Source: Pontiellaceae bacterium B1224 (GTDB taxonomy: Bacteria > Verrucomicrobiota > Kiritimatiellia > Kiritimatiellales > Pontiellaceae). Taken from it: a stretch of DNA of 64,000 nt. Below, piece by piece: positions 791 to 28,608 of this stretch (position 1 is its first letter; the number at the start of each line of letters is the position of its first letter). The notes beneath the pieces were generated by a model that was not told the DNA's origin, did no database searches, and saw only the letters and a program-made list of their open reading frames with translations. A program made the translations under genes and the position numbers. The DNA lies in NCBI GenBank assembly GCA_029432815.1, contig JAROBA010000001.1, forward strand, positions 1 to 64,000, read 5' to 3'.

Positions 791-939
791 GTTACAAATT
801 ATTAAACACTGCAAACAGCGGGTTATTACACCCAGGCTATGCAATAAATGAAAAGGAATCCGGCTAATATCGCGCGCCTTTTTTGCGTTCATCGAATGCC
901 TTTTCGTGTATGAATTCGGAAACTCAGAAAGGATTTTTC

Positions 940-1686
940 ATGGAAATTGATAAACTAGAACACTTGTTGAACCGGTTTAAAAACGGTGAGGTGGATTTGC
1001 CGTCGACGCTTTCGACGCTGAAGCAGCTGCCCTTTGAAGATATGGGCTTTGCCAAAGTTGACCATCACCGCGCGCTGCGCACGGGTTATCCCGAAGTGGT
1101 TTTCTGTCAGGGAAAAACCCATGAGCAGGTGGAGAAAATTTTCCAGGCGTTGGAAAAACACAACGACAATATTCTGATGACCCGCGCCGAACCGGAATTG
1201 TTCCAACGATTGGAAAAAGTGGACAGCCGACTTGTTTACAACGAACTTGGTCGAACCATTACGCTGAACAAAACCGAAAAGAAAACGACCGGCCTCGTGC
1301 TGGTGATCTCCGCCGGAACAGCCGATATTCCGGTGGCCGAAGAAGCCGCTGAAACGGCTACCATCTCCGGTGCAAACGTGGAACGGATTTATGATGCGGG
1401 CGTGGCCGGCATTCATCGTCTGTTGGCTCACAACGATAAAATCCAACAGGCGCGAGCAATTGTCTGTGTGGCCGGAATGGAAGGCGCCCTGCCCTCCGTT
1501 GTCGGCGGTCTTGCGCCCTGCCCCGTGATTGCGGTTCCGACATCGGTCGGTTATGGCTCGCATCTCAACGGCATTGCCCCGCTTTTTACCATGCTGAATT
1601 CCTGTGCTCCGAACATTACGGTGGTGAATATCGACAACGGTTTCGGCGCCGGCTTTAATGCGGCCATGGTCAACGCTGATCGGTAG
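940..1686 (+). CDS. larB: LarB, nickel-pincer cofactor biosynthesis carboxylase/hydrolase
   Basis: LarB carboxylates the pyridinium ring of nicotinic acid adenine dinucleotide and hydrolyses it, the first step toward the nickel-pincer nucleotide cofactor of lactate racemase-type enzymes. The 248-residue protein has an N-terminal helical part and a C-terminal PurE-like (AIR carboxylase) domain from about residue 118, with VISAGTADIPVAEEAA and a GMEGALPSVVGGL stretch. Cys222 in MLNSCAPN matches the catalytic cysteine known near position 221 in LarB. The start at 940 follows an AGAAAGGA site; an upstream in-frame ATG (910) is less likely. Two exact palindrome copies (1141, 1201) are read in frame as FQALE and FQRLE. 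larC lies 56 kb away; larE and larA are not in the window. Confidence 0.92.
   Translation: MEIDKLEHLLNRFKNGEVDLPSTLSTLKQLPFEDMGFAKVDHHRALRTGYPEVVFCQGKTHEQVEKIFQALEKHNDNILMTRAEPELFQRLEKVDSRLVYNELGRTITLNKTEKKTTGLVLVISAGTADIPVAEEAAETATISGANVERIYDAGVAGIHRLLAHNDKIQQARAIVCVAGMEGALPSVVGGLAPCPVIAVPTSVGYGSHLNGIAPLFTMLNSCAPNITVVNIDNGFGAGFNAAMVNADR
1141..1215. repeat. two in-gene copies of the dispersed palindrome TTCCANNNNNTGGAA
   Basis: Exact copies at 1141-1155 and 1201-1215 lie inside larB. Other exact copies start at 9004, 15019, 15076, 15098, 16610, 17101, 17416, 17447, 18503, 18603, 19074, 22878, 22915, 23322, 23351, 26201, 27154, 28720, 34460, 34563, 35667, 37009, 37821, 38911, 41454, 42410, 42427, 46489, 46923, 50029, 51480, 52534, 53714, 54606, 56826, 57456, 57711 and 58081. 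One-mismatch copies start at 249, 5048, 14542, 15266, 23721, 37803, 38496, 45578, 45962, 46970, 48710, 49215, 51607, 54156, 55270 and 58433. Position 6 is usually A or G and position 10 usually T. Ten fixed bases predict about 0.06 chance copies in 64 kb. Confidence 0.95.
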
Positions 1687-1710
1687 AGGAAAAATACCCA
1701 CATAATGTTC

Positions 1711-1740
1711 TATATTTAAAACGTCGTTTTATTTATAAAA
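1711..1740. promoter_or_regulatory. AT-rich inverted repeat upstream of the IclR gene
   Basis: AAAACG-T-CGTTTT (1718-1730) is an inverted repeat in an AT-rich stretch between larB and the IclR-type gene. It could be an operator for the regulator, as IclR proteins usually bind near their own promoter, or a weak larB terminator. The sequence alone does not decide. Confidence 0.3.
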
Positions 1741-1792
1741 CAAATCCTCGATGTCGCTCCATCCTTCAGGGCGATGCAAATATGAGGTGGGT

Positions 1793-2599
1793 ATGAATCA
1801 GCAATATCACGTGCCCGGGTTATCCCGGGCTCTGGAAGTTATTGAATATTTGGCGGAATGCGGTCATAGCGGAGCGACACTGACCGAACTGACTGCCGCG
1901 TTGGGATATCCTAAAAACTCGATTTTCCGCATCACCACCACCCTGCTCGATAAAGGGTATTTTTCGAGGGATCCCGATTCCCAGAAATTTCGCATGACGA
2001 AAAAGTTCCTCTCGTATGGTCTCGTCTCCGTGACGGACCGAAACATCATCGAACAGGCTTTAGACGTGATGCGACACCTTCGTGACGAAACCAATACATC
2101 GACGTTTATCGGCGTTCTCCATAACGGGGCCGGCATGATCCTTGAGCAAGCTCCGGGCGGTTTTCCGTTCAAACTAAGCGTTGATCCGGGCACCCGGTTT
2201 AAGCTGCATTGCAGCGCACCGGGTAAAGCATTGCTGGCCTTTGTCAGCGAAGAAGAACGGGAACTGCTGTTGAAAAAAATAAGATTCACTTTGCATACGC
2301 CTCAAACCATCACGGCCATGAAGCCGTTTCGCACGGAGCTGAAGCAGGTGAAAGATCTCGGTTACGCACTCGACTGCGCCGAGGAATTTGACGGCATTCA
2401 TTGCATCGGTGCACCGATCTTCGACTACACCAATCAGGCCGTAGCGGCCATCTGGATCAGCGGAGCCAGCTTTGCTTTACCGCCTGAATCCTTCAGCAAA
2501 AATGGACAGCGCGTCAAAACCGCCGCACTGAAAATTTCCGAGCGGCTGGGTTATCTGAGTAATGAAAAGGAGCGCCAAGATGAAAAACCGGATTCTTAA
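1793..2599 (+). CDS. IclR-family transcriptional regulator
   Basis: A 268-residue DNA-binding regulator. The N-terminal winged helix-turn-helix spans about residues 8-70 (LSRALEVIEYLAECG, then LTELTAALGYPKNSIFRITTTL). The effector-binding IclR domain follows (about 85-255) with the typical HCSAPGKALLAF segment. The start at 1793 follows GAGGTGGG; an earlier in-frame ATG (1751) lacks such a site. Its 3' end overlaps the next gene by 20 bases, tying it to the cytochrome/dehydrogenase set downstream. IclR proteins usually sense a small carbon-source metabolite, so I infer that it controls the genes from 2580 onward. The effector cannot be read from sequence. Confidence 0.9.
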   Translation: MNQQYHVPGLSRALEVIEYLAECGHSGATLTELTAALGYPKNSIFRITTTLLDKGYFSRDPDSQKFRMTKKFLSYGLVSVTDRNIIEQALDVMRHLRDETNTSTFIGVLHNGAGMILEQAPGGFPFKLSVDPGTRFKLHCSAPGKALLAFVSEEERELLLKKIRFTLHTPQTITAMKPFRTELKQVKDLGYALDCAEEFDGIHCIGAPIFDYTNQAVAAIWISGASFALPPESFSKNGQRVKTAALKISERLGYLSNEKERQDEKPDS

Positions 2600-4913
2600 A
2601 ACAGCCATCGCGCTGTTATGTTTAACAGCATCCTCCCGGAGTGCAGATGAATCAGCCCTTTGGCAGGAATATCCGCTGATTTTTGTAACGCGACACCAAT
2701 ACAAACCGGATCATCACAATACCGCAACCCTGTTTCAGCGGGGCGAGGTTAACGAAGCGTCCTATAACCCTCCAGGACGAATAAAGATCCTGAACCCGAA
2801 AACGGGTGCGGTTAAAACGCTGGTCGATGCCGGTCCCACCGGTATTGCGCGCGATCCTGAAATCTCGCCCGACGGCAGCAAGGTGGTCTTCAGCATGCGC
2901 AGGAGCATTGAGGACGATTACCATATTTATGAGATTAACGTCGACGGATCGAACCTGAAACAACTGACCTCGCTCAAAGGCGTCTCCGATATTGATCCGG
3001 TCTATCTGCCCGATGGAAAGATTGCCTTCAGTTCCACACGTGAACCGAAATTCTGCATGTGCAACAAACATATTATGGCGAACCTCTATCGGATGGATGC
3101 CGATGGCGCAAACATCCACCAGATTGGGAAGAGCACCCTGTTTGAAGGGCACAGCTCCGTGATGGAAGACGGTCGCATCCTTTACGACCGCTGGGAATAT
3201 GTGGACCGCAACTTCGGCGATGCTCAGGGCCTTTGGACTGTAAATCCCGACGGCACCATGCACGCGATCTTTTACGGAAACAACACCCCATCCCCCGGCG
3301 GGATCATCGATGCCCGCCAGATTCCCGGCAGCCAGAACGTCATCGCCATTTTCGGATCCTGCCATGACCGCCCATGGGGCGCGCTGGCCATTCTTAACCG
3401 AAATAAAGGGATCGATGGGGACGCAGGTGTCGAGCACATCTGGCCGGCCTCGGCCCGGAAGCTGATCGGGAAGGGCAACTTTGATACATTCAAACAAGTA
3501 CGCCCGCGCTATGAAGATCCTTTTCCGCTCTCCGAAACCCGCTTTCTCTGCACCAGAACCATTTCCGACGATGATGAACGCACCGGTATTTATCTGATCG
3601 ACACCGCCGGCAACGAAAAACTGATTTATGAGGACCCCGATGGCTTCGGCTGTTTTGATCCCATGCCGGTCAAGGCCCGTAGGGCGGCGCGCCCAAAACC
3701 GGATATGCGCAGTTTTGATCACGCCGGCGGCACACTCTATGTGCAAGACGTCTATGAAGGTACGCACATGGAAGGCGTTGAACGTGGGGAGGTCAAGTTT
3801 CTGCGGGTGGTCGAATCCCCGGAAAAGCGAAGCTTCAATCGAAACCGTTGGGGTGGTCAGGGCACGCAGATCCCTGCCATGAACTGGCATAGCTTTGAGA
3901 ATAAACGTATTCTCGGCACCGTTCCGGTCGAAGAGGACGGCTCGGCTTTTTTTGAAGTTCCCGCCGACACCTTCTTTTATTTTCAGTTGCTCGATGCCGA
4001 CGGAAAAATGATTCAGTCAATGCGGTCAGGCACGATCATGCAACCGAATGAACAGCAGGGCTGTATCGGCTGTCACGAAAACCGCGTGGAGCCTCCGCAG
4101 GCTGCCGCGCTAAGCCTTCAGGCACTGACACGCCCGCCCTCGCCGATGGGCCTAGGTTATGGTGCAGGCCGGATGTTCAGCTATCTGGAAGAGGTGCAGC
4201 CGGTCTTTGATAAACACTGTGTCTCCTGTCACGACTTCGGCAAACCGGCCGGAGAAATCCTCAACCTCGCCAGAGATAAAGAACTGGTATTCAATGCATC
4301 GTATGCGGACCTGCACCGCAACAAGTTCATCACGGTTGCGGGTGCCGGACGCGCAGCAATCTATCCAGCCAAGTCGTGGGGATCATATACCAGCAAGCTG
4401 TCGAAACAGCTGGACGGCCACAACGGAACTCTCCTGACCGATGCCGAAAAAACAGCCGTCTACACCTGGATGGACCTCAACGGAATATATTATCCCAGCT
4501 ATGACTGTGCCTATCCCGACAACCCGGCCGGTCGCAGCCCAATCACGAACGCCCAGCTGTCGCGCCTGGCTGAACTTTGCGGTTTTGAGCAAAAATCCGG
4601 ACTCCACTGGCGAACCCATCCCGGCGCACTGATTAGCTTTGACCGCCCAACGCTGAGCCCCTGTCTCAAAAAACTGGATACAGATTCCGAAGCCTATGCC
4701 GAAGCTCTGGCCATTATTGAGAGCGGACAAACCAATCTGAAATCAACCCCGCGTGCTGATATGGACGGCTTTATTCCCTGCCAAAATGACCTCGAACGCA
4801 CCGAGCGATATGAAGCGTTGCGGACTGTCGAAGCCGCCTACCGCAAAGCCGTCTTCGAAGGCAGAAAACTTTACGATACCGATATGCAAACCACCATAGG
4901 AGAAAAGCTATGA
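2580..4913 (+). CDS. secreted HzsA-related dihaem c-type cytochrome
   Basis: A 777-residue exported protein. A signal peptide (residues 1 to about 24) precedes a TolB-like beta-propeller region with repeated SPDGSKVVFS and YLPDGKIAFSS blades. The C-terminal part carries two haem c attachment motifs, CIGCH at 495-499 and CVSCH at 547-551. This architecture is annotated elsewhere as HzsA-related, after the hydrazine synthase alpha subunit, but occurs in many PVC bacteria that do not make hydrazine. A periplasmic electron-transfer or oxidoreductase role is likely; the substrate is unknown. The start at 2580 has an AAGGAG site, whereas the upstream ATG at 2562 does not. It overlaps the dehydrogenase gene by four bases (ATGA). 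Confidence 0.82.
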   Translation: MKNRILKTAIALLCLTASSRSADESALWQEYPLIFVTRHQYKPDHHNTATLFQRGEVNEASYNPPGRIKILNPKTGAVKTLVDAGPTGIARDPEISPDGSKVVFSMRRSIEDDYHIYEINVDGSNLKQLTSLKGVSDIDPVYLPDGKIAFSSTREPKFCMCNKHIMANLYRMDADGANIHQIGKSTLFEGHSSVMEDGRILYDRWEYVDRNFGDAQGLWTVNPDGTMHAIFYGNNTPSPGGIIDARQIPGSQNVIAIFGSCHDRPWGALAILNRNKGIDGDAGVEHIWPASARKLIGKGNFDTFKQVRPRYEDPFPLSETRFLCTRTISDDDERTGIYLIDTAGNEKLIYEDPDGFGCFDPMPVKARRAARPKPDMRSFDHAGGTLYVQDVYEGTHMEGVERGEVKFLRVVESPEKRSFNRNRWGGQGTQIPAMNWHSFENKRILGTVPVEEDGSAFFEVPADTFFYFQLLDADGKMIQSMRSGTIMQPNEQQGCIGCHENRVEPPQAAALSLQALTRPPSPMGLGYGAGRMFSYLEEVQPVFDKHCVSCHDFGKPAGEILNLARDKELVFNASYADLHRNKFITVAGAGRAAIYPAKSWGSYTSKLSKQLDGHNGTLLTDAEKTAVYTWMDLNGIYYPSYDCAYPDNPAGRSPITNAQLSRLAELCGFEQKSGLHWRTHPGALISFDRPTLSPCLKKLDTDSEAYAEALAIIESGQTNLKSTPRADMDGFIPCQNDLERTERYEALRTVEAAYRKAVFEGRKLYDTDMQTTIGEKL

Positions 4914-6052
4914 CCTTTGATTATTTGATCCCCACAAAAATTTTGTTCGGAGCTGGGAAACTGAACCAGCTGGCCGAAGAAAAACTGCCGGGTACCAAAG
5001 CCCTTATCGTGATCTCCGCCGGCACTTCGATGCGGAAGCATGGCTATCTCCAACGATTGGAAAAACTGTTGGAGCAGCAAGGGATCCACTCCGTGGTCTA
5101 CGATAAAATTCTGCCCAACCCGATTAAAGAACACGTGATGGAAGGCGCGGCACTGGCCAAGGAAAATAGCTGCGATTTTGTAATCGGGCTTGGTGGCGGC
5201 TCTTCAATTGATGCGGCGAAGTCAATTGCCGTGATGGCTGTGAATCCGGGCGACTACTGGGACTACATCGGCAGCGGCTCCGGCAAGGGCGAGCCTGTCG
5301 AAAACGGAGCACTGCCCATCGTCGCGATCACCACCACCGCCGGAACCGGAACGGAAGCCGACCCGTGGACGGTGATTACCAACGGCGATGAGAAAATTGG
5401 ATTCGGCGATCCTGCCTTTACCTTCCCGGTGCTGTCCGTGGTCGATCCGGAGCTGATGCTTTCCGTACCGCCGCAACTGACCGCCTTTCAGGGATTCGAT
5501 GCACTGTTCCATTCGGTCGAAGGCTATATTGCCAACATAGCCACACCAATGAGCGACATCTATGCCCTTGAAAGTATCCGCCTCATTGCCGAATATCTGC
5601 CGACGGCCGTGGCGGACGGTACAAATATCGAGGCGCGCGAAAAAGTGGCTCTGGCCAATACGCTCTCCGGCATGGTGGAATCGACCTCCTGCTGCATTTC
5701 AGAACATTCGCTGGAACACGCCATGAGCGGCCGGCATCCCGAACTGCCGCACGGTGCCGGGTTGATTATGCTCTCAGAAGCCTACCTCTCTCATTTTGCA
5801 GATAAAATTCCGGAAAAATACAAAGCGATGGCCCAGGCCATGGGCGGCACCGATTTTGTGGAAGAGCTGGTTAAGCTTCAGGAAAAATGCGGCGTACGGG
5901 AGCTGAAAATGTCCGACTACGGCATTACCGAAAATGAGCTCGAAGCGATTGCCGAAAATGCGCGCGACACCATGGGCTTCCTGTTCGAGCTTGATCCTGT
6001 CCAGATTACCCCCGCTGAAACCGTCCATATTCTTCAAGCGGCTTATAGATAA
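4910..6052 (+). CDS. iron-containing (type III) alcohol dehydrogenase
   Basis: A 380-residue NAD(P)-dependent group III alcohol dehydrogenase without signal peptide, so cytoplasmic. The dinucleotide-binding GGGSSID lies at 95-101 and the ITTTAGTGTEA segment at 140-150. Metal ligands expected for the family are visible: Asp197 and His201 in GFDALFH, His266/His270 in EHSLEH, and His281 in LPHGAG. It is translationally coupled to the preceding cytochrome gene. The family covers butanol, lactaldehyde/propanediol and related dehydrogenases, so the substrate is open. Co-location with larB could hint at C3 alcohol/lactate metabolism, but this is inference. Confidence 0.9.
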   Translation: MTFDYLIPTKILFGAGKLNQLAEEKLPGTKALIVISAGTSMRKHGYLQRLEKLLEQQGIHSVVYDKILPNPIKEHVMEGAALAKENSCDFVIGLGGGSSIDAAKSIAVMAVNPGDYWDYIGSGSGKGEPVENGALPIVAITTTAGTGTEADPWTVITNGDEKIGFGDPAFTFPVLSVVDPELMLSVPPQLTAFQGFDALFHSVEGYIANIATPMSDIYALESIRLIAEYLPTAVADGTNIEAREKVALANTLSGMVESTSCCISEHSLEHAMSGRHPELPHGAGLIMLSEAYLSHFADKIPEKYKAMAQAMGGTDFVEELVKLQEKCGVRELKMSDYGITENELEAIAENARDTMGFLFELDPVQITPAETVHILQAAYR

Positions 6053-6080
6053 AATTTGCATTACCCAACAAAGGAATAAC

Positions 6081-6932
6081 ATGAAAACGCTGATTTTTCT
6101 GATCATGCTGGTTGGCTCCGTACAGGCGCAGCACCGTTTGCTGGTGAGCGGATGTGCCTATGGCGAAGTGGCCGTCTATGCCATAGACGGCACCAAAGAG
6201 TGGAGTATCGCCGAAAAAAATGAAGCCGACGATGCATGGCTCCTGCCGAACAACGATATTGTGATGGCCTATAAATATGGCGTCCGCATCATTCGTCCGG
6301 ATTGGAAAAGCGGATCTGGCGCCGAGGTGCTGAACGACCGCCCCACGCCCAACAAAGGGGAAACACACAGCTGCCAGCCGATTCCCGGCGGGTTTCTGAT
6401 CGGCGAAAGTTTTAAGGATGTTTCTTATATCGTCGAGCTAGATACAGACCTGAATGAAACGAAACGCATCGAACTGAAGGGACTCGGAGGTAAACACTCA
6501 ACCTTCCGGCAAATCCGGAAAACACCGCAAAACACCTATCTGATTACCCAACAGCAAAAGGGCGGCATTGCGATGGAAGTGAACGGTTCCGGAAAAATTA
6601 TACGCCGCTTCCCGGATGGCCGGTTTGTCGCAGAGCGGCTGAAAAACGGAAACACCCTGATCGCCTGTGGCGACAATCACCGAATTATTGAAGTCGATCC
6701 CAAAGACCAAATCGTCTGGGCACTGGAACAAAACGATATCCCCGGAATTGCCATCGGATTTGCCGGTGGCATTCAGCGGCTGCCCAATGGGAATACCCTC
6801 TTCTGCAACTGGGGCGGACACGGCGGCACCGAAGGCGCTTCCATTATCGAAGTATCGCCGGATAAAAAAGTGGTGTGGTCCACCTCGCCCGGCAAAGCCA
6901 ACCGAATTGCGAACGTTAAAGTGATTAAATGA
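6081..6932 (+). CDS. secreted beta-propeller protein
   Basis: A 283-residue protein with a short signal peptide ending VGSVQAQ. It contains repeated blade signatures such as RLLVSGCAYGEVAVYAIDG, RLKNGNTLIACGDNHRIIEVD and RLPNGNTLFCNWGGHG, typical of PQQ/arylsulfotransferase-like propellers that occur beside sugar and sulfatase genes in PVC bacteria. No catalytic residues are recognisable, so it may be a binding or scaffold protein for the neighbouring cytochromes. Start 6081 follows AAAGGAATAAC, 28 bases after the dehydrogenase stop, consistent with the same operon. Periplasmic or secreted. Confidence 0.78.
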   Translation: MKTLIFLIMLVGSVQAQHRLLVSGCAYGEVAVYAIDGTKEWSIAEKNEADDAWLLPNNDIVMAYKYGVRIIRPDWKSGSGAEVLNDRPTPNKGETHSCQPIPGGFLIGESFKDVSYIVELDTDLNETKRIELKGLGGKHSTFRQIRKTPQNTYLITQQQKGGIAMEVNGSGKIIRRFPDGRFVAERLKNGNTLIACGDNHRIIEVDPKDQIVWALEQNDIPGIAIGFAGGIQRLPNGNTLFCNWGGHGGTEGASIIEVSPDKKVVWSTSPGKANRIANVKVIK

Positions 6933-6957
6933 TGCGACTTCAACAAAGACTCAGAAC

Positions 6958-9900
6958 ATGAACAGATTTTTAAAATTTCAATTTTTTGCTGCGATTCTCG
7001 TGGCCGCTCCGCTGCTGATGAGCGGGGATGCCACAGCGGCAAAGGAAAAGCGCAATAAGGATCATGCAGACGCTGAACAGGTATTTCCTGTTTCCAAAGT
7101 GATTGAAGATGCACGGCTGGCGATTGAATTCCTGGGCAAGAAGCATCAGTCATACAAGGCAAAAGATTATTTGAAGAAACTCACTGCGCTGGAGACTGCG
7201 GGCGCGCCCTTCGAGAAGATTGACGAGTTGCGATACGAGGCCCTGGTGCTCAACAATCCTGAAGTCGACTTCGATAAGATTCTTTTCCGCAGCTCACAAT
7301 CCGATAGGTTCCCGTCCAATTGGCAGGGCAACTCCACGCTCCTCCGGCGCGGCGGCAAAGAGTCGAAACCCAGGTTCGGCGATGAGTTCCGGGTGCTGGA
7401 TCTAAATAGCAAAGCCATTAAAACCCTCTATCGCCCGACAGAAGAGCGGGAAGCCCTGATGGACATCTGCCTCGATTATTCCGGAGGGAAATTTCTCTAC
7501 TCCGGGATCGATCTCGATTCCAACACCTTTCAGGTCTATGAGATGAATCTGGCGGGTGGCCGACCGCGCAGGATCACGCCCATCCTTCCCGAAATCGACA
7601 ACTACAACGGCATTTACCTTCCCAACGGAAAAATCCTGTTCTGTTCCACGGCCTCCCTCAACTCGGTGCCCTGCGTCGGCGGGAGCGACTATGTCGGGAC
7701 GCTCTACGAAATTGATGCCGACGGCCGCAACATGAAACAGGTCTGTTTCGATCAGGAGAACGACTGGTATCCGTGGGTCAAAGAAACCGGCCGCGTCATG
7801 TACAGCCGCTGGGAATATACCGACAACTCGCACTATTTTACCCGCATCCTTTTGGAAATGAATCCCGACGGTACCGGCAACCGTTCCATCTACGGTTCCA
7901 ATTCCTACTGGCCCAACACCCTGTTCTATGCCAAACAGATTCCCGGGCACACCTCCAAATTTTCCGCCATTGTTTCCGGACACCATGGCACGGCACGCGC
8001 CGGCGAGCTGATCATTTTTGACCAGAGCAAAGGCGACTTTGAGGCCAATGGCGCACTGCAGCGCATTCCCGGTCGCGGTGAAAAAGTTGAGCCGGTCATC
8101 ATCGATAACTATATGAAAGGAAAGTGGCCCCGCTTTCTGCATCCCTATCCGCTGAGCGAAAACTTTTTTCTGGTTTCCGGTCAGATGCGCGATAAAGGAC
8201 CCTGGGCGCTCTATCTGGTTGATACGTTTGACAACATGGTCCAGCTGGGCGAAAGCGAGGACTACATGTTCGAGCCGGTGCCGATCAAGGTTCGTAAGGT
8301 ACCGCCCGTGATTCCCGATCGCCGACGCCCCGACGCAAAGAACGGCATGCTCTATATTCAGGACATCTATGAAGGCCCCGGGCTGGAAGGGCTGCCACGC
8401 GACACCGTAGCCGGGCTCCGCCTGTTTACCTATGGCTACGCTTATCGTTTAAGTGGCTCGCACGACGCGCTGGCCATTGAAGGAGCATGGGATACCAAGC
8501 GCATTCTGGGTACGGTGCCGATTGAAGAGGATGGATCCGTGATGGTCACCGTGCCGCACAGCCGGCCGATCTCGATCCAGCCGATCGATAAGGACGGCCG
8601 GGCGCTTCAGGTGATGCGCAGTTGGACGGTTGCCCAGCAGGGCGAAGTTGTGTCCTGCGTGGGTTGCCACGAACCAAGCAATACGTCACCGCTGTCCCGC
8701 CCTGCTCTGGCCTCGCGCAAGGCTCCGCAAAATCTAAGGCCATGGACGCAGGAAGAAATGCCGTACGGGTTCGGTTTCAAACGCGAGGTGCAGCCTGTTT
8801 TGGATCGCTATTGTGTCGGCTGCCACAATGGTTCGACCCCGGATCGACCGGACTTTAAGGACATCAGCGAGGTCCAGTTCGGCCGCAAAACGCGTTTCGG
8901 AAAATCCTATATGGCGCTGCATCCGTATGTTCGTCGTCCAGGGCCGGAGAGTAACCTGCACATGCTCAATCCCATGGAATACCATACCTCAACCAGCCCG
9001 CTGTTCCAGATATTGGAAAAAGGGCACTATGGTGTGGAGGTAGACGCTGCATCCATGCGCAAGCTGATTGAATGGGTCGATCTCAATGTCCCCTACCACG
9101 CCTCCTGGACCGAGGTGAACGATAGCGAGGCCACCCAGGAAATTGCAGAACTGACCGTTCAATACAAAAAGATATTCAGCGGCATCAACGATAACATCGA
9201 ATGGCTTCCGCCTTTGCCAAAACGTCCCAACTTCGAAAAACCAGCCCGAGTACCAAAGCCCCCCACCCCCCTGACTCTTACAGGTTGGCCGTTGGGGAAC
9301 CGAGCTGCCCCGGAGCGTCGCACCCTTTCTTTTGGTGGACAATCGTTGGATTTCGTTAAAATCCCCGCCGGAAAATATGTCATGGGATCCGTGACCGGCG
9401 CACCCGATGAATATCCACAGACCGTGGTCGAAATCAAAAAACCGTTCCTGATGTCCACCACGGAGATCACGAACGAACAGCTGCAGCAATTCCTGCCGGA
9501 CCACGACAGCCAGTTCATCGACCAGCAGTGGAAGGATCACATCTATGCCGGCTATCCGGCCAACGAACCGGAAATGCCGGCCGTGCGCGTCAGCTGGAAC
9601 GATGCCCTCGCGTTCACTCAGCAGCTATCTGAAAAGGTCGGCAGAAGGGTGACCCTGCCGACCGAGGCACAATGGGAATGGGCGGCGCGTGCCGGCTCCG
9701 ACCAGCCGTTTTTCTTTGGTGATTCGGGTTTCGAAAAGTATGCCAACCTCGCCGACCGGAGTATTGGCCTGCTTGCGGTGCGCGGCGTGAATCCAAAACC
9801 GGTTGCTGAAAGGTCCCGCACGCCGCTGAATAACTTTGTCCCGCGCGACGAATCATTCGACGACGGCCAAATGGTGCCGTCCGGCACGGCTCAGTATGCG

Positions 9901-10665
9901 CCGAATCCATGGGGACTCTACGACATGCATGGCAACGTGGCCGAATGGACGCGGACATCCTATGAACCCTATCCTTACAGCGAGACCGATGGCCGCAATG
10001 ATCTGTCGTTGGGTGACCGCAAAACGGTGCGCGGCGGCTCCTGGCGCGACCGGCCGAAAAGAGCAACCTCCTCCTGCCGTCTCATGTATGCCCCGTTCCA
10101 AAAGGTTTACAACGTCGGATTCCGGGTGGTTTTGGAATACGCCTCCGAAGCGGAATTGGATGCCGACTTTTCCTCGTGGAAGATGGCTTCCGGGAAAAGA
10201 GCTCCGACAGCAGGTAAAAGTCGTAAGCCACGAATGCCCGAACAAGGCGGCTCGCTCGCTTCCGCCACCATCACAGCATCCCGGCCGATGGACGGGCGGG
10301 AGGGTCTTTGGATGCTTATCGACGGAGATCACTACACCAAATGGTACGACTCGGGGTTTGAAGCGTCGATGTGGATCCAGATCCAGCTCGAGGGCGGTGC
10401 TAAGGAAACATGTTCTTCATACACCATGGTATCCGGAAACGATGTGCCCGGGCGCGATCCCAAAGGGTGGGAGCTGCATGGCTCCAAAGACAATGGCAAG
10501 AGCTGGACGCTGCTGGATAAAAGATCCAATGAAATATTTAAGGATCGCCTGGAGGTTCGCGAGTTTCCCATTGCAGCTCCGGCTCCGTACAATGCCTATA
10601 AATTGGTGATAACTGATTGCACCAAAGGGGTTCAGTTGTCTGAGATTGAGCTGAATTTTGAATAG
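6958..10665 (+). CDS. giant HzsA-related cytochrome fused to FGE-like and discoidin-like domains
   Basis: A 1235-residue exported protein (signal peptide to about residue 27). Order of parts: helical N-terminus; TolB-like propeller related to the protein at 2580; haem c motifs CVGCH at 567-571 and 619-623; a formylglycine-generating-enzyme (SUMF1) fold at about 797-1063 with EITNEQ, LPTEAQWEWAARAG and MHGNVAEW; and an F5/8 type C-like domain at about 1095-1235. The FGE-like part shows RGGSWRDRPKRATSSC, so it lacks the CxxxxC copper-site pair of active enzymes and is probably not a sulfatase activator. The tail may bind carbohydrate. A copy of the palindrome (9004) is read as FQILE. Confidence 0.8.
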   Translation: MNRFLKFQFFAAILVAAPLLMSGDATAAKEKRNKDHADAEQVFPVSKVIEDARLAIEFLGKKHQSYKAKDYLKKLTALETAGAPFEKIDELRYEALVLNNPEVDFDKILFRSSQSDRFPSNWQGNSTLLRRGGKESKPRFGDEFRVLDLNSKAIKTLYRPTEEREALMDICLDYSGGKFLYSGIDLDSNTFQVYEMNLAGGRPRRITPILPEIDNYNGIYLPNGKILFCSTASLNSVPCVGGSDYVGTLYEIDADGRNMKQVCFDQENDWYPWVKETGRVMYSRWEYTDNSHYFTRILLEMNPDGTGNRSIYGSNSYWPNTLFYAKQIPGHTSKFSAIVSGHHGTARAGELIIFDQSKGDFEANGALQRIPGRGEKVEPVIIDNYMKGKWPRFLHPYPLSENFFLVSGQMRDKGPWALYLVDTFDNMVQLGESEDYMFEPVPIKVRKVPPVIPDRRRPDAKNGMLYIQDIYEGPGLEGLPRDTVAGLRLFTYGYAYRLSGSHDALAIEGAWDTKRILGTVPIEEDGSVMVTVPHSRPISIQPIDKDGRALQVMRSWTVAQQGEVVSCVGCHEPSNTSPLSRPALASRKAPQNLRPWTQEEMPYGFGFKREVQPVLDRYCVGCHNGSTPDRPDFKDISEVQFGRKTRFGKSYMALHPYVRRPGPESNLHMLNPMEYHTSTSPLFQILEKGHYGVEVDAASMRKLIEWVDLNVPYHASWTEVNDSEATQEIAELTVQYKKIFSGINDNIEWLPPLPKRPNFEKPARVPKPPTPLTLTGWPLGNRAAPERRTLSFGGQSLDFVKIPAGKYVMGSVTGAPDEYPQTVVEIKKPFLMSTTEITNEQLQQFLPDHDSQFIDQQWKDHIYAGYPANEPEMPAVRVSWNDALAFTQQLSEKVGRRVTLPTEAQWEWAARAGSDQPFFFGDSGFEKYANLADRSIGLLAVRGVNPKPVAERSRTPLNNFVPRDESFDDGQMVPSGTAQYAPNPWGLYDMHGNVAEWTRTSYEPYPYSETDGRNDLSLGDRKTVRGGSWRDRPKRATSSCRLMYAPFQKVYNVGFRVVLEYASEAELDADFSSWKMASGKRAPTAGKSRKPRMPEQGGSLASATITASRPMDGREGLWMLIDGDHYTKWYDSGFEASMWIQIQLEGGAKETCSSYTMVSGNDVPGRDPKGWELHGSKDNGKSWTLLDKRSNEIFKDRLEVREFPIAAPAPYNAYKLVITDCTKGVQLSEIELNFE

Positions 10666-10743
10666 TTCGCGACCTGATTTATTCAGCGTCGGACTCGCAA
10701 ACCGAACCTTGTTAATTAAGGGACTTTTACCTAATTTGGACCT

Positions 10744-12531
10744 ATGAAGTTTTTATATATGTACATAGCACTGTTTTCGATCCTTTCGGCAGGCATCGCC
10801 CAAACATACCTATCTCCGGCTGATCTCGACTTTTCACCTGAAAGGAAAAGCATCTACATCACAGCCACATCCGGCAAACAGCTGCTGGTATTCGATATGC
10901 CCTCCAAAAAGGTCACTTCATCCATTCCGCTGCCCGGAGAACCAACGGGCACCGTTTTTTCCAATCATGGGAAAACACTGTTCGTGACTGGCGGCGGACA
11001 CGAAGGGCGAATCTGGAAAGTGGAAAACGATGCTGTGGTCGGCGAATTCAAAACGGGGCACACCCCTACCGCACCGGTCCTTTCGCCGGATGGGAAAACA
11101 CTCTACGTCTGCAATCAGTTTGATAATGATGTTTCGTTCATCAATTTGAAAACCGGCGTAACCGAGGCGCGCGTAGCGACGGTGCGGGAACCGAATGCCG
11201 CAGACATCACACCCGATGGAAATACCCTATTCATTGCCAACCTGATTCCGGCCGGTCGGGCCGATGGGAATTATATTGCATCCGCAATAACGGCAATTAA
11301 TACCCAGACCCGAAAATCTTCCAGCATCCCTTTAATTAATGGCGCCGAGGGAGTACGCGGCATCAAGGTATCGCCCGATGGGAACTATGTTTTTGCCACG
11401 CATCGGGTTGCACGCTATCTCGTACCTACCTCGCAGCTGGAACGCGGGTGGGTTTCCACGGATGCCCTCAGCATCATTCGGGTGAAAGACCACAAGCTGA
11501 TCTATACGGTACTGCTTGATGATATCGACCAGGGCTTTACCAATCCCTGGGCCATCGATTTTTCCAATGATGGGAAAACTATGATCATCTCATCTGCCGG
11601 AAATCATGAAATCAGCCTGATCGACTATCCGGCCATGATGAAGAAAGTCGCGGCAAACGTCTCGGATTCCAACGAGATGGAATCAAGCAGCCTCTCTTTC
11701 CTTTCCGGAATCCGTAAGCGGATCAAGCTTGAAGGTAACGGACCGCGTTCACTCGTGGTCGATGGAGACCTTATCTTCATCGCCCACTACTATTCCGATT
11801 CGCTGGAAGTGATCCGCATGATGAAGGACGGCAACACCAGGAGCAGTTCCTTTGCTCTTAATTCCAAACAGCCCATGACCCAGGAGCGGTTGGGCGAAAT
11901 CTATTTTAATGATGCGGCTCTCTGTTTCCAGAACTGGCTCAGTTGTGCCACGTGTCATCCGGATGCCCGCACCGACGGACTGAACTGGGATCTGCTCAAT
12001 GACGGAATCGGCAATCCGAAAAATGCCAAATCCATGCTGCTCGCGCATAAAACCCCGCGTGCAATGTGGCTGGGCGTGAGGGACGATGCCTATGTCGGGG
12101 TGCGCGCCGGCATCCAGCACATTCAGTTCGCGGTGCGTCCCCCAGAAGATGCAGAGGCTATCGATGCGTATCTGAAAAGCCTTGAGCCGATCCCCAGCCC
12201 GTATTTAGAAAATGGAGAACTGAGCAGGGCCGCGCAGCGGGGAAGAGCAATCTTCGAATCCATAGGCTGCGTCCGTTGCCATCCCTCGCCATTATTCACC
12301 GATCTGCAAATGTATGACATCGGCACCACAACGGGATCGGACGAAGGGCTTCCCGTGGATGTCCCGCAGCTCATAGAGGTCTGGCGTACCGCGCCCTATA
12401 TGCACGACGGCCGCGCCGCCACAATGCTCGAGGTTTTTAATATCCACAAACACGGAAACAGGCATGGTGGAATTGACGGGCTTTCCCCGGAACAGCTCGA
12501 CGATCTGGTGGAATATGTTCTTTCGCTTTAG
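10744..12531 (+). CDS. secreted beta-propeller dihaem cytochrome
   Basis: A 595-residue protein with a signal peptide (to about residue 19), an N-terminal YVTN-type propeller (SPDGKTLYVCNQFDNDVSFI, TPDGNTLFIANL) and a C-terminal cytochrome part with CATCH at 401-405 and CVRCH at 509-513. The second half, including the MHDGRAATMLEVFN segment, resembles MauG/dihaem peroxidase-like proteins often paired with propellers. It sits 78 bases after the giant cytochrome on the same strand, and the run of same-strand genes ends here. A periplasmic electron carrier or peroxidase for the system is plausible; the partner is not determinable. Confidence 0.82.
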   Translation: MKFLYMYIALFSILSAGIAQTYLSPADLDFSPERKSIYITATSGKQLLVFDMPSKKVTSSIPLPGEPTGTVFSNHGKTLFVTGGGHEGRIWKVENDAVVGEFKTGHTPTAPVLSPDGKTLYVCNQFDNDVSFINLKTGVTEARVATVREPNAADITPDGNTLFIANLIPAGRADGNYIASAITAINTQTRKSSSIPLINGAEGVRGIKVSPDGNYVFATHRVARYLVPTSQLERGWVSTDALSIIRVKDHKLIYTVLLDDIDQGFTNPWAIDFSNDGKTMIISSAGNHEISLIDYPAMMKKVAANVSDSNEMESSSLSFLSGIRKRIKLEGNGPRSLVVDGDLIFIAHYYSDSLEVIRMMKDGNTRSSSFALNSKQPMTQERLGEIYFNDAALCFQNWLSCATCHPDARTDGLNWDLLNDGIGNPKNAKSMLLAHKTPRAMWLGVRDDAYVGVRAGIQHIQFAVRPPEDAEAIDAYLKSLEPIPSPYLENGELSRAAQRGRAIFESIGCVRCHPSPLFTDLQMYDIGTTTGSDEGLPVDVPQLIEVWRTAPYMHDGRAATMLEVFNIHKHGNRHGGIDGLSPEQLDDLVEYVLSL

Positions 12532-12538
12532 AAGTTGA

Positions 12539-13699
12539 TCACTTCTGCTTAGAATCGTTAAGTGCACGAATTTCCTTTTCCAGCACGCGGGCTCGTCTAT
12601 GCCCACGCACCTTATCGTCGACGGAAAACATCGGTTCCACAATTTCTTTCCACTTCGGCTCGTTGTGATGGTCCGCAATGATGGCCCACGCATAGGATTC
12701 GCCGGGATCGACCTCAACACCAAGCCCCTTTCCGCAGGCGTGTACCATGCGAACCTGGGCATCAACACTTCCTTTCATCGCAGGCTTGAGCGCCCATTTT
12801 GTTGATTCTGCCTGATTGGTTTCAACCCCGTCGCCGAATGCGAAGGCATACATTAAGAATTTCTGTGATTCGACGTCGCCGCTTTCCGCCGCCAATGAAA
12901 ACCATTTCACAGCTTCTTTATGGTCCTCTTTAACCCCATGCCCGCCCGCGTAGCTTCGGGCCATCTCGACCTGTGCCGGAACATGGCCGTGCTCCGCCGC
13001 ACATAAGCCCCATTTCAGTGCGAGTTCTGAACTGGAATCAACGCCCTCTCCTCGCGCATAAAAACCAGCTAACGCATACTCCGCAACAGGATGTCCCTGA
13101 CCGGCGGCTTTTCCCATCCAGTAAGCGGCTTTTTTCATATCTACTGCCACGCCCTTTCCATTGACGAAGCAAAAGGCCAATGCCATTTGAGCATCTGCGA
13201 ATCCCTTTGCTGCAGATTTCTCCAGACAGGCGACGCCTTTCTCCGGGTTCACGTAATGATGTGTTCCTTCCAGATATAATCCGGCCAGCGCAAACTCGGC
13301 AAATGCGTCCCCATCAGCAGCTCCTTTTGAGAGCAAGCAATAGGCCTCGGCGGCGTCCGGAGTCAGGCCTAGATCACCATTCAGATAGGCCATGCCCAGC
13401 ATGGACTGAGCATAGACATAGCCCTGCTCCGCCGACTTCATCATCCAGTTCAATGCGAGTGCATCGTCCTTTTCAAACACTTTTCCTTCCATATGTCCGT
13501 AGGCGATAAAGAATTGAGCCTCTGCATCACCGTCTTCTGCGGCTTTCTGATAAGCCGTGACAGTCCCCTGGGGTCCTAACCGTTCGATGGACTCTTGCAC
13601 GCGCAGCGCGGCGGGACCGCGCTCCGCCCATGAATATGACAGCGAGGGGGTATTCCCCGCGGCAATAGATGCGGATACCCAAAGAATGATAACACTCAT
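12539..13699 (-). CDS. Sel1-like repeat protein, exported
   Basis: A 386-residue protein made mostly of Sel1-type (TPR-like) helical repeats of about 36 residues, with recurring A-x-x-G-x-x-x-A-Q and Y-x-x-G-x-G-V signatures (for example MLGMAYLNGDLGL and YALAGFYARGEGV). I chose ATG 13699 because a GGAG lies just upstream and the product then begins with a short hydrophobic export signal; the frame extends upstream to 13747. Sel1 repeats usually mediate protein-protein contacts. The gene is convergent with the cytochrome gene (7-base gap) and divergent from efpL. Function unknown. Confidence 0.8.
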   Translation of the reverse strand: MSVIILWVSASIAAGNTPSLSYSWAERGPAALRVQESIERLGPQGTVTAYQKAAEDGDAEAQFFIAYGHMEGKVFEKDDALALNWMMKSAEQGYVYAQSMLGMAYLNGDLGLTPDAAEAYCLLSKGAADGDAFAEFALAGLYLEGTHHYVNPEKGVACLEKSAAKGFADAQMALAFCFVNGKGVAVDMKKAAYWMGKAAGQGHPVAEYALAGFYARGEGVDSSSELALKWGLCAAEHGHVPAQVEMARSYAGGHGVKEDHKEAVKWFSLAAESGDVESQKFLMYAFAFGDGVETNQAESTKWALKPAMKGSVDAQVRMVHACGKGLGVEVDPGESYAWAIIADHHNEPKWKEIVEPMFSVDDKVRGHRRARVLEKEIRALNDSKQK

Positions 13700-13752
13700 G
13701 ACTCCATTTGTTTTTATGACGTATTCCCCCATGATTCTTGCAATCAATCCGC

Positions 13753-27543: not shown

Positions 27544-28608
27544 TTAGGGTGATGGCGGATTAAAGACAACCCGGAAGCCGGTATGATTCAGACTTGTATC
27601 AGGACTGGTTTTCATCCGGGCGGCGGGCCGGAAGCCGGAGCAGTATGCATCGTTGCACAGAAACGATCCTCCGCGGGTAACCTTCTTCGGCATGTGCGGT
27701 TCCTGCGGATCGTACGCCGTCAGGGGCCCCTGCGGGTTTTCAACAACACCTTTTCGGGCGTCCATTCGATAGGCGTCCAAGTGGTACCAGTCGGCCGTCC
27801 ATTCCCAGACATTGCCAGCCATATCGTAAAGCCCGTAATCGTTGGGCGCAAAAGCAGTGACCGGCGAGGTTCCGTAATAGCCATCTTTTTTATAGTTCCG
27901 ACTGGGGAATACCCCTTCCCAGTAATTGATTTTAACGGCGCCTTTATCGACCGGCTCATCGCCCCAGATATAGAGCCATTGCTCATGGCCGCCCCGGGCG
28001 GCGTATTCCCATTGCGCTTCGGTCGGCAGGCTTACACCTTTCCAGTCGGCATAGGCCTTGGCATCGTACCAGGAAACCTGTACGACGGGATGGTCCATGA
28101 TGTCATCGATGGAACTGCCCGGTCCTTTCGGATGCATCCAGTTGGCCCCGGCTTTCCACTGCCACCAAACCAGCGGGTTGTTTAAACCCACCGGATGCCC
28201 CGGCGGTGTGAAAACCATTGAGGCCGGAATGAGCACGGAGTCGGGCGGTGGTGCTGAGCCCGGCGGCATCCCTTTCATCAATTCTTTCACATCCGGCTTT
28301 TTCTCAGCCGTGGTCACATACCCGGTGGCATCCACAAATTCCTTGAATTCAGCATTTGTGACCGGAGTACGTTTCATCCAGAACCCATCCAGTTTCACCT
28401 GATGCAACGGGCGTTCATCCGGCCGCCCGAAGTCGCCTTCCCACCCCATTGTATATTCCCCGCCGGGAATCCACAGCATCCCTTCCGGTGCCTTTGGCTG
28501 CTGGATTCCGAACCGCGATGGCAGGATGCCGCAGCAACTCATGTTTGTTTCCTGCGCAACGACCGCACACGATAGGGCCATTCCTAATCCCAATAAAATC
28601 TGTTTCAT
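27544..28608 (-). CDS. secreted formylglycine-generating-enzyme (SUMF1) family protein
   Basis: Enzymes of this family convert a sulfatase active-site cysteine to formylglycine with oxygen and copper. The 354-residue protein has a signal peptide ending AVVAQE, the fold signatures MGWEGDFG, TNAEFKEFVDATGY, LPTEAQWEYAARGG and DMAGNVWEWTADWY, and a C-terminal GGSFLCNDAYC in which Cys318 and Cys323 match the copper-binding CxxxxC pair of active enzymes. I therefore call it a plausible active FGE, unlike the FGE-like part in the cytochrome at 6958. No sulfatase gene is in the window. Export implies action in the periplasm. Confidence 0.85.
   Translation of the reverse strand: MKQILLGLGMALSCAVVAQETNMSCCGILPSRFGIQQPKAPEGMLWIPGGEYTMGWEGDFGRPDERPLHQVKLDGFWMKRTPVTNAEFKEFVDATGYVTTAEKKPDVKELMKGMPPGSAPPPDSVLIPASMVFTPPGHPVGLNNPLVWWQWKAGANWMHPKGPGSSIDDIMDHPVVQVSWYDAKAYADWKGVSLPTEAQWEYAARGGHEQWLYIWGDEPVDKGAVKINYWEGVFPSRNYKKDGYYGTSPVTAFAPNDYGLYDMAGNVWEWTADWYHLDAYRMDARKGVVENPQGPLTAYDPQEPHMPKKVTRGGSFLCNDAYCSGFRPAARMKTSPDTSLNHTGFRVVFNPPSP

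Follow-up and report, generated by a model that had tools for sequence, protein, structure and literature searches.

The first 64,000 nucleotides of contig JAROBA010000001.1 of Pontiellaceae bacterium B1224 (assembly GCA_029432815.1), hereafter the window, carry at positions 6958–10665 a gene for an exported protein in which a dihaem part resembling HzsA, the alpha subunit of hydrazine synthase, is joined to a domain of the formylglycine-generating enzyme (FGE) family and to a discoidin-like tail. This fusion (HzsA-FGE) is probably the alpha-like subunit of a hydrazine-synthase-like periplasmic complex of bacteria other than those performing anaerobic ammonium oxidation (anammox), with a beta-gamma-like subunit (HzsBC) encoded next door (10744–12531). 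What has been shown is that both halves are homologous to hydrazine synthase, that haem-c motifs are present, that the two genes regularly occur together and side by side, and that the hydrazine-synthesis residues and the FGE copper site are lost. The original prediction, which proposed for the fusion a role of scaffold or new oxidase, considered it as a lone protein and so overlooked that it represents one half, the alpha-like one, of a pair resembling hydrazine synthase; both the beta-gamma-like partner at 10744–12531 and a second HzsA-like gene at 2562–4913 escaped its attention.

Domain organization of the fusion and its partner

The features of the window bearing on this pair are as follows.

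6958–10665, plus strand: HzsA-like dihaem protein with FGE-like domain and F5/8-C-like tail; ATG start, 1235 amino acids, exported
7285–9237, plus strand: HzsA-like part (propeller, middle domain and C-terminal dihaem region), with profile and fold matches to 5c2v
8656–8670, plus strand: first CXXCH, residues 567–571, counterpart of the haem alpha-I site as aligned to 5c2v_A
8812–8826, plus strand: second CXXCH, residues 619–623, counterpart of the haem alpha-II site as aligned to 5c2v_A
9349–10131, plus strand: FGE-sulfatase family domain without copper cysteine pair (Pfam, alignment)
10261–10653, plus strand: discoidin (F5/8 type C)-like tail, present in 2 of 22 aligned fusions (Pfam, PDB match)
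10744–12531, plus strand: HzsBC-like protein, exported, with YVTN-type propeller (beta-like) and dihaem CCP/MauG-like part (gamma-like); NF052342, 5c2v
27544–28605, minus strand: true FGE with the cysteine pair GGSFLCNDAYC, recognized by motif and used as internal control

The three-domain fusion supposed initially is real: a single exported open reading frame of 1235 amino acids, with a Sec signal peptide read by eye at its N-terminus, contains all three parts. The HzsA-like dihaem assignment also stands, the Pfam family HZS_alpha matching residues 508–572 over its cut-off (5.4e-27) and two CXXCH motifs being present. Hydrazine synthase alpha (5c2v_A) was the sole PDB match of the profile built for the HzsA part (A2, 1.3e-19), and together with 5c2v_D it headed the fold search for this part, performed with a poor model (mean predicted local distance difference test, pLDDT, of 50.8 for the fusion, modelled with 7 sequences). 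For the neighbouring protein, a profile of six HzsBC proteins matched 5c2v_B along its length (8.4e-43) as well as 5c2v_C (1.1e-33), while 5c2v_B was the top fold match of its predicted model (mean pLDDT 62.1, 2 sequences). Its match to NF052342, the beta-gamma fusion, lies under the cut-off at 1.1e-50, whereas CCP_MauG in the gamma-like half exceeds its own (34.1 bits vs 25.6, Pfam), and the window copy bears the distal-pocket Trp. With the HzsA part matching 5c2v_A and HzsBC matching both 5c2v_B and 5c2v_C, each of the three hydrazine synthase subunits has a counterpart encoded at this locus. A ResB gene for cytochrome c maturation was found in the genome.

The FGE-like domain (residues 798–1058; 6e-43, 147.8 bits vs the Pfam cut-off of 23.3) belongs to the same FGE-sulfatase family as FGE (SUMF1) but contains, as originally noticed, a single cysteine. 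At the positions of the copper cysteines the window protein has Asp (1031) and Ala (1036), where human FGE has GGSYMCxxxxC; the fusions mostly read GGSWxDRPxRA, with Asp at 1031 in 19 of 22 (Asn, Gln or Glu in the others) and mostly Ala at 1036, and the pair (GGSxxCxxxxC) occurs in 0/22. An active FGE is ruled out by this loss. The domain thus looks inactive throughout the aligned fusions, as had been suggested, but this is nothing special, because the GGS-x2-C-x4-C motif was found in only 2 of the 8 FGE-domain proteins of the same genome and domains of this family lacking the pair are therefore ordinary. Among solved structures in the PDB search the nearest relatives were PorK/GldK and PvdO, with true FGE behind them; PorK/GldK and PvdO also bear an acidic residue where FGE has the first copper Cys, though the respective entries, unlike the fused copy, are not joined to cytochromes.

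The tail is sub-threshold in Pfam (F5_F8_type_C at residues 1105–1191, 3.8e-05, 24.2 bits vs the gathering cut-off of 28.2) and matches two stretches of the GH92 enzyme 7nsn in the PDB search (1.7e-13 and 2.9e-11). It is indeed a part of the fusion here, but its presence in 2/22 aligned fusions makes it a local add-on rather than a constituent of the common architecture.

Conservation of the pair and divergence from hydrazine synthase

The 22 aligned proteins were picked as fusions, so that the HzsA-FGE order is in all of them by choice; both CXXCH motifs, C239, H343 and H690 are invariant. Searching 345 genomes of the class Kiritimatiellae (phylum Verrucomicrobiota) with model A1 for HzsA gave matches of 1e-60 or better in 114, at least 84 of which span both the HzsA and FGE parts, and full fusions were found outside the class in 24 genomes of a phylum sample of 387. 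The HzsA-FGE architecture is hence common in the class and persists in relatives, so that the refuting case named in the original prediction, domains split in all of them, does not apply. When HzsBC was searched in the same 345 genomes with model A4, both genes appeared in 100, HzsA alone in 14, HzsBC alone in 5 and neither in 226 (Fisher 3e-64, genome counts not corrected for kinship); counted by family, the respective numbers are 17, 4, 1 and 28 (1e-8). HzsBC is present in 78 of the 84 full-fusion genomes of the class and in 24/24 listed full-fusion genomes outside it, where 9 further genomes have HzsBC without full fusion. The two genes lie within 3 kb of each other in 36 genomes, and in 29 of these the distance is under 500 nt. 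In genus g125 (2.7–3.5 Mb, 98–100% complete, GC 0.50–0.57), for which size, GC and kinship point to Akkermansia, the pair falls within ~1 kb in 13/13 genomes listed with the fusion, and on the HzsBC tree the clade uniting the window copy with other Pontiellaceae is joined to g125 copies with support 95/92. The HzsBC copies of this genus at loci L108, L109 and L111 have a third CXXCH.

On contig C66 of the B1224 genome there is another HzsBC/HzsA pair, in which a 1227-amino-acid HzsBC-like protein (L034:5141-8821) with Calx-beta before the propeller adjoins an HzsA-like gene. Elsewhere, five HzsA-like genes, two of them FGE fusions, stand in a row (L113:2-16518), HzsBC-like and chorismatase-like genes being just beyond (L154), and one genome (G128) encodes HzsA-FGE and HzsBC proteins of 2025 and 1949 amino acids with long extra N-terminal parts (L115:7246-13320 and L149:1753-7599).

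The window pair shares with hydrazine synthase (5c2v) the subunit set, domain order, both alpha and both gamma CXXCH motifs and the best sequence and fold matches, while its alpha gene precedes beta-gamma and bears the FGE-like domain. The residues of the hydrazine synthase sites were taken from the main text of PMC12758564, and gamma sites were read by eye from alignments of six HzsBC-like proteins. No Tyr occurs in columns 572–578 of 22/22 fusions, where the proximal haem ligand alpha-Tyr591 would be expected; the position of the zinc ligand alpha-Cys303 is, by numbering, occupied by a nearly invariant Asn (Asn315), this Cys being absent also in Scalinduaceae (PMC12758564). Gamma-Cys165, making the third thioether, is absent in 6/6, and the position of gamma-His144 holds Trp in 4/6 and Ile in 2/6. 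For alpha-His772, the distal ligand of haem alpha-II, the corresponding stretch did not align; in Kuenenia this residue lies 83 residues past the His of the second CXXCH in the numbering of PMC12758564, and the invariant His690 of the fusions lies 67 past it. Missing catalytic residues argue against hydrazine synthesis, and true hydrazine synthase as a claim of membership is rejected on their account.

Pairs of this kind outside anammox bacteria were published in 2025 as HZS-like alpha and fused beta-gamma, forming clades I–IV, from Planctomycetota and Desulfobacterota, with Opitutus terrae also named (PMC12758564, main text). As described there, alpha is upstream of co-located fused beta-gamma in clades I–III, and non-anammox homologues lack catalytic residues and have Trp at gamma-His144; in co-location, gene order, missing residues and gamma Trp the window pair is alike. 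The difference lies in the third Cys, retained in clade I but absent here, and in the FGE fusion as well as the chorismatase-like neighbour of relatives. The words 'formylglycine', 'sulfatase', 'Kiritimatiell' and 'Verrucomicrob' do not occur in the main text of that paper.

Chorismatase-like gene in relatives

A protein of ~380 amino acids, matched best in the PDB by the chorismatases Hyg5 (5ag3, 1.1e-18) and FkbO (4bps, 2e-18), adjoins HzsBC in loci L057, L052, L108, L109 and L111. We take both 5ag3 and 5a3k to be Hyg5, the entries themselves being titled putative pteridine-dependent dioxygenase. The Cys present in 5ag3 and absent in FkbO is kept in 5/5 of these proteins, and presumably it is this residue that decides the product type. 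All three chorismatase-like proteins scanned against TIGR04444 scored 42–68 bits, under its cut-off of 325 bits. The Hyg5 chorismatase is tied to 3-hydroxybenzoate (PMC7170507). Within the class the gene was found in 144/345 genomes and in 96 of the 105 possessing HzsBC; it lies no further than 1.5 kb from the latter in 55 genomes, which represent 12 families, and on the HzsBC tree copies beside the fusion and copies beside the chorismatase-like gene interleave. Its presence in 22/24 compared loci should not be read as a frequency, most of these loci having been selected for it. In the genome of B1224 the gene is located on contig C119, away from the HzsBC of the window, and so the third partner is not a part of the window locus.

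The recurrence of a Hyg5-type gene beside HzsBC suggests that a chorismate-derived aromatic is involved, which might serve as precursor, mediator or substrate. HzsA-FGE, HzsBC and the Hyg5-type enzyme might then constitute a redox pathway not described so far in Verrucomicrobiota, Akkermansia probably among its carriers, in which a tetrahaem machine of hydrazine synthase type acts on, or is wired by, such an aromatic in the periplasm; we offer this extension very tentatively and consider it rather doubtful. The literature searched, which took in few subscription journals and preprints and only main texts, yielded no paper dealing with the FGE fusion or with a link to chorismatases. For a long time hydrazine synthase was regarded as an enzyme of anammox bacteria only. 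With respect to the question of its origin, a widespread and conserved pair of this type in non-anammox Verrucomicrobiota, with stable FGE fusion and recurrent chorismatase-like neighbour, provides extant relatives on which the ancestral chemistry of such a complex could be measured, and some carriers have small complete genomes that appear to resemble Akkermansia, where genetics may be feasible.

Putative role, competing explanations and surrounding genes

HzsA-FGE and HzsBC would assemble as one tetrahaem periplasmic complex, in which the gamma-like domain may perform chemistry of CCP/MauG type (with peroxide or similar) with exchange of electrons between it and the haems of the alpha-like part. 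Fused to this part, the FGE-like fold would act as a binding or docking module and not as a formylglycine maker, and the discoidin-like tail might be an extra glycan- or surface-binding element; one or a few HzsBC-like hubs may be common to several different HzsA-like chains. A number of circumstances weigh against assigning the fusion to such a complex. Both its formation and its activity are inferred from sequence; Ile replaces the CCP/MauG Trp in 2/6 HzsBC proteins; 14 of 114 A1-matched genomes, drafts of mixed completeness, have no BC match; in many genomes HzsA-FGE genes stand at a great distance from HzsBC, and with paralogues in large numbers some fusions may act alone. The iron-containing alcohol dehydrogenase gene upstream of the fusion is a neighbour confined to Pontiellaceae, and the chorismatase-like gene of the same genome is on another contig.

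Among other explanations, the fusion may be regarded as an oxidoreductase acting on glycans, or a cytochrome binding them, in loci devoted to sulfated, fucose-rich polysaccharides, its FGE-like and discoidin-like parts being sugar binders. Several fusions do have sulfatase genes and fucosidase genes of GH95 or GH29 next to them, and the tail is similar to that of a GH92 enzyme, but sulfatases turned out no denser than genome background, ~16 being seen against 13.6 expected from a control based on first-look candidate numbers per genome, since at most 59 candidates were scored in each; since this control predicts nearly the observed number, the sulfatase association was dropped. GH95 genes beside fusions, 4 among the matches listed (G028, G046, G409, G498) vs 1.0 expected (P 0.02), give a small excess uncorrected for kinship, and no such neighbour accompanies the BC-linked fusion loci examined (the window, L037, L039, L052, L057, L102, L107, L108, L109 and L111), which leaves this explanation unlikely. 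GH95 genes of loci L110, L112, L041 and L045 (in L112 also GH29) adjoin fusions not beside HzsBC.

Somewhat less credible is participation in peroxide or nitric oxide (NO) defence, the pair being a respiratory peroxidase of the CCP kind to which an HzsA-like arm for electron transfer is attached. This reading draws on the CCP_MauG match, on the Trp that 4/6 proteins carry at the CCP/MauG position and on a catalase gene (L111:11151-12602) adjoining the fusion in genome G498; yet catalase was encountered in this one locus only, and the FGE-like domain, paralogue expansion and chorismatase-like partner are left unexplained. We give still less weight to the FGE-like part being itself an oxidase or dehydrogenase, or making formylglycine by another route: PvdO, annotated by NCBIfam as dehydrogenase, is among its closest solved relatives, but PorK/GldK, parts of a secretion system, are equally close, the copper pair is missing in 22/22 and a metal ligand set could not be named. 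Finally, an unrecognised true hydrazine synthase converting NO and ammonia to hydrazine in non-anammox bacteria is highly improbable, since counterparts of all three subunits, best PDB matches and a beta-gamma fusion known also in Scalindua (PMC12758564, main text) are opposed by the four altered sites and by NCBIfam scores far below the equivalog cut-offs (64 vs 800 bits for alpha, 172.6 vs 1250 for beta-gamma).

Coming back to the window, where the fusion is read as the alpha-like half of the pair, the genes upstream of it are as follows.

1751–2599, plus strand: IclR-type regulator; same order in L037
2562–4913, plus strand: second HzsA-like protein (HzsA2) without FGE domain, two CXXCH motifs, exported (Pfam, NCBIfam)
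4910–6052, plus strand: iron-containing alcohol dehydrogenase, judged by eye to lack a signal peptide; neighbour of the fusion in 5/22 fusion loci, Pontiellaceae only
6081–6932, plus strand: exported Mala_s_1-like propeller protein; adjoins fusion and HzsBC also in L037, L039 and L111

All genes described from 883 to 12531 are on the plus strand; those of HzsA2 and the alcohol dehydrogenase share 4 nt, after which gaps of 28, 25 and 78 nt separate the genes up to HzsBC. Sec-type signals were recognized by eye also for HzsA2, HzsBC and the propeller protein at 6081–6932. Scanning for promoters and terminators revealed nothing above the level of shuffled sequences. Upstream of the IclR gene there is a LarB-type gene of the nickel-pincer cofactor (946–1683, NF033503 over cut-off), with the same arrangement in L037, and directly after HzsBC a Sel1-like repeat protein, recognized by eye, is encoded on the opposite strand (12539–13747).

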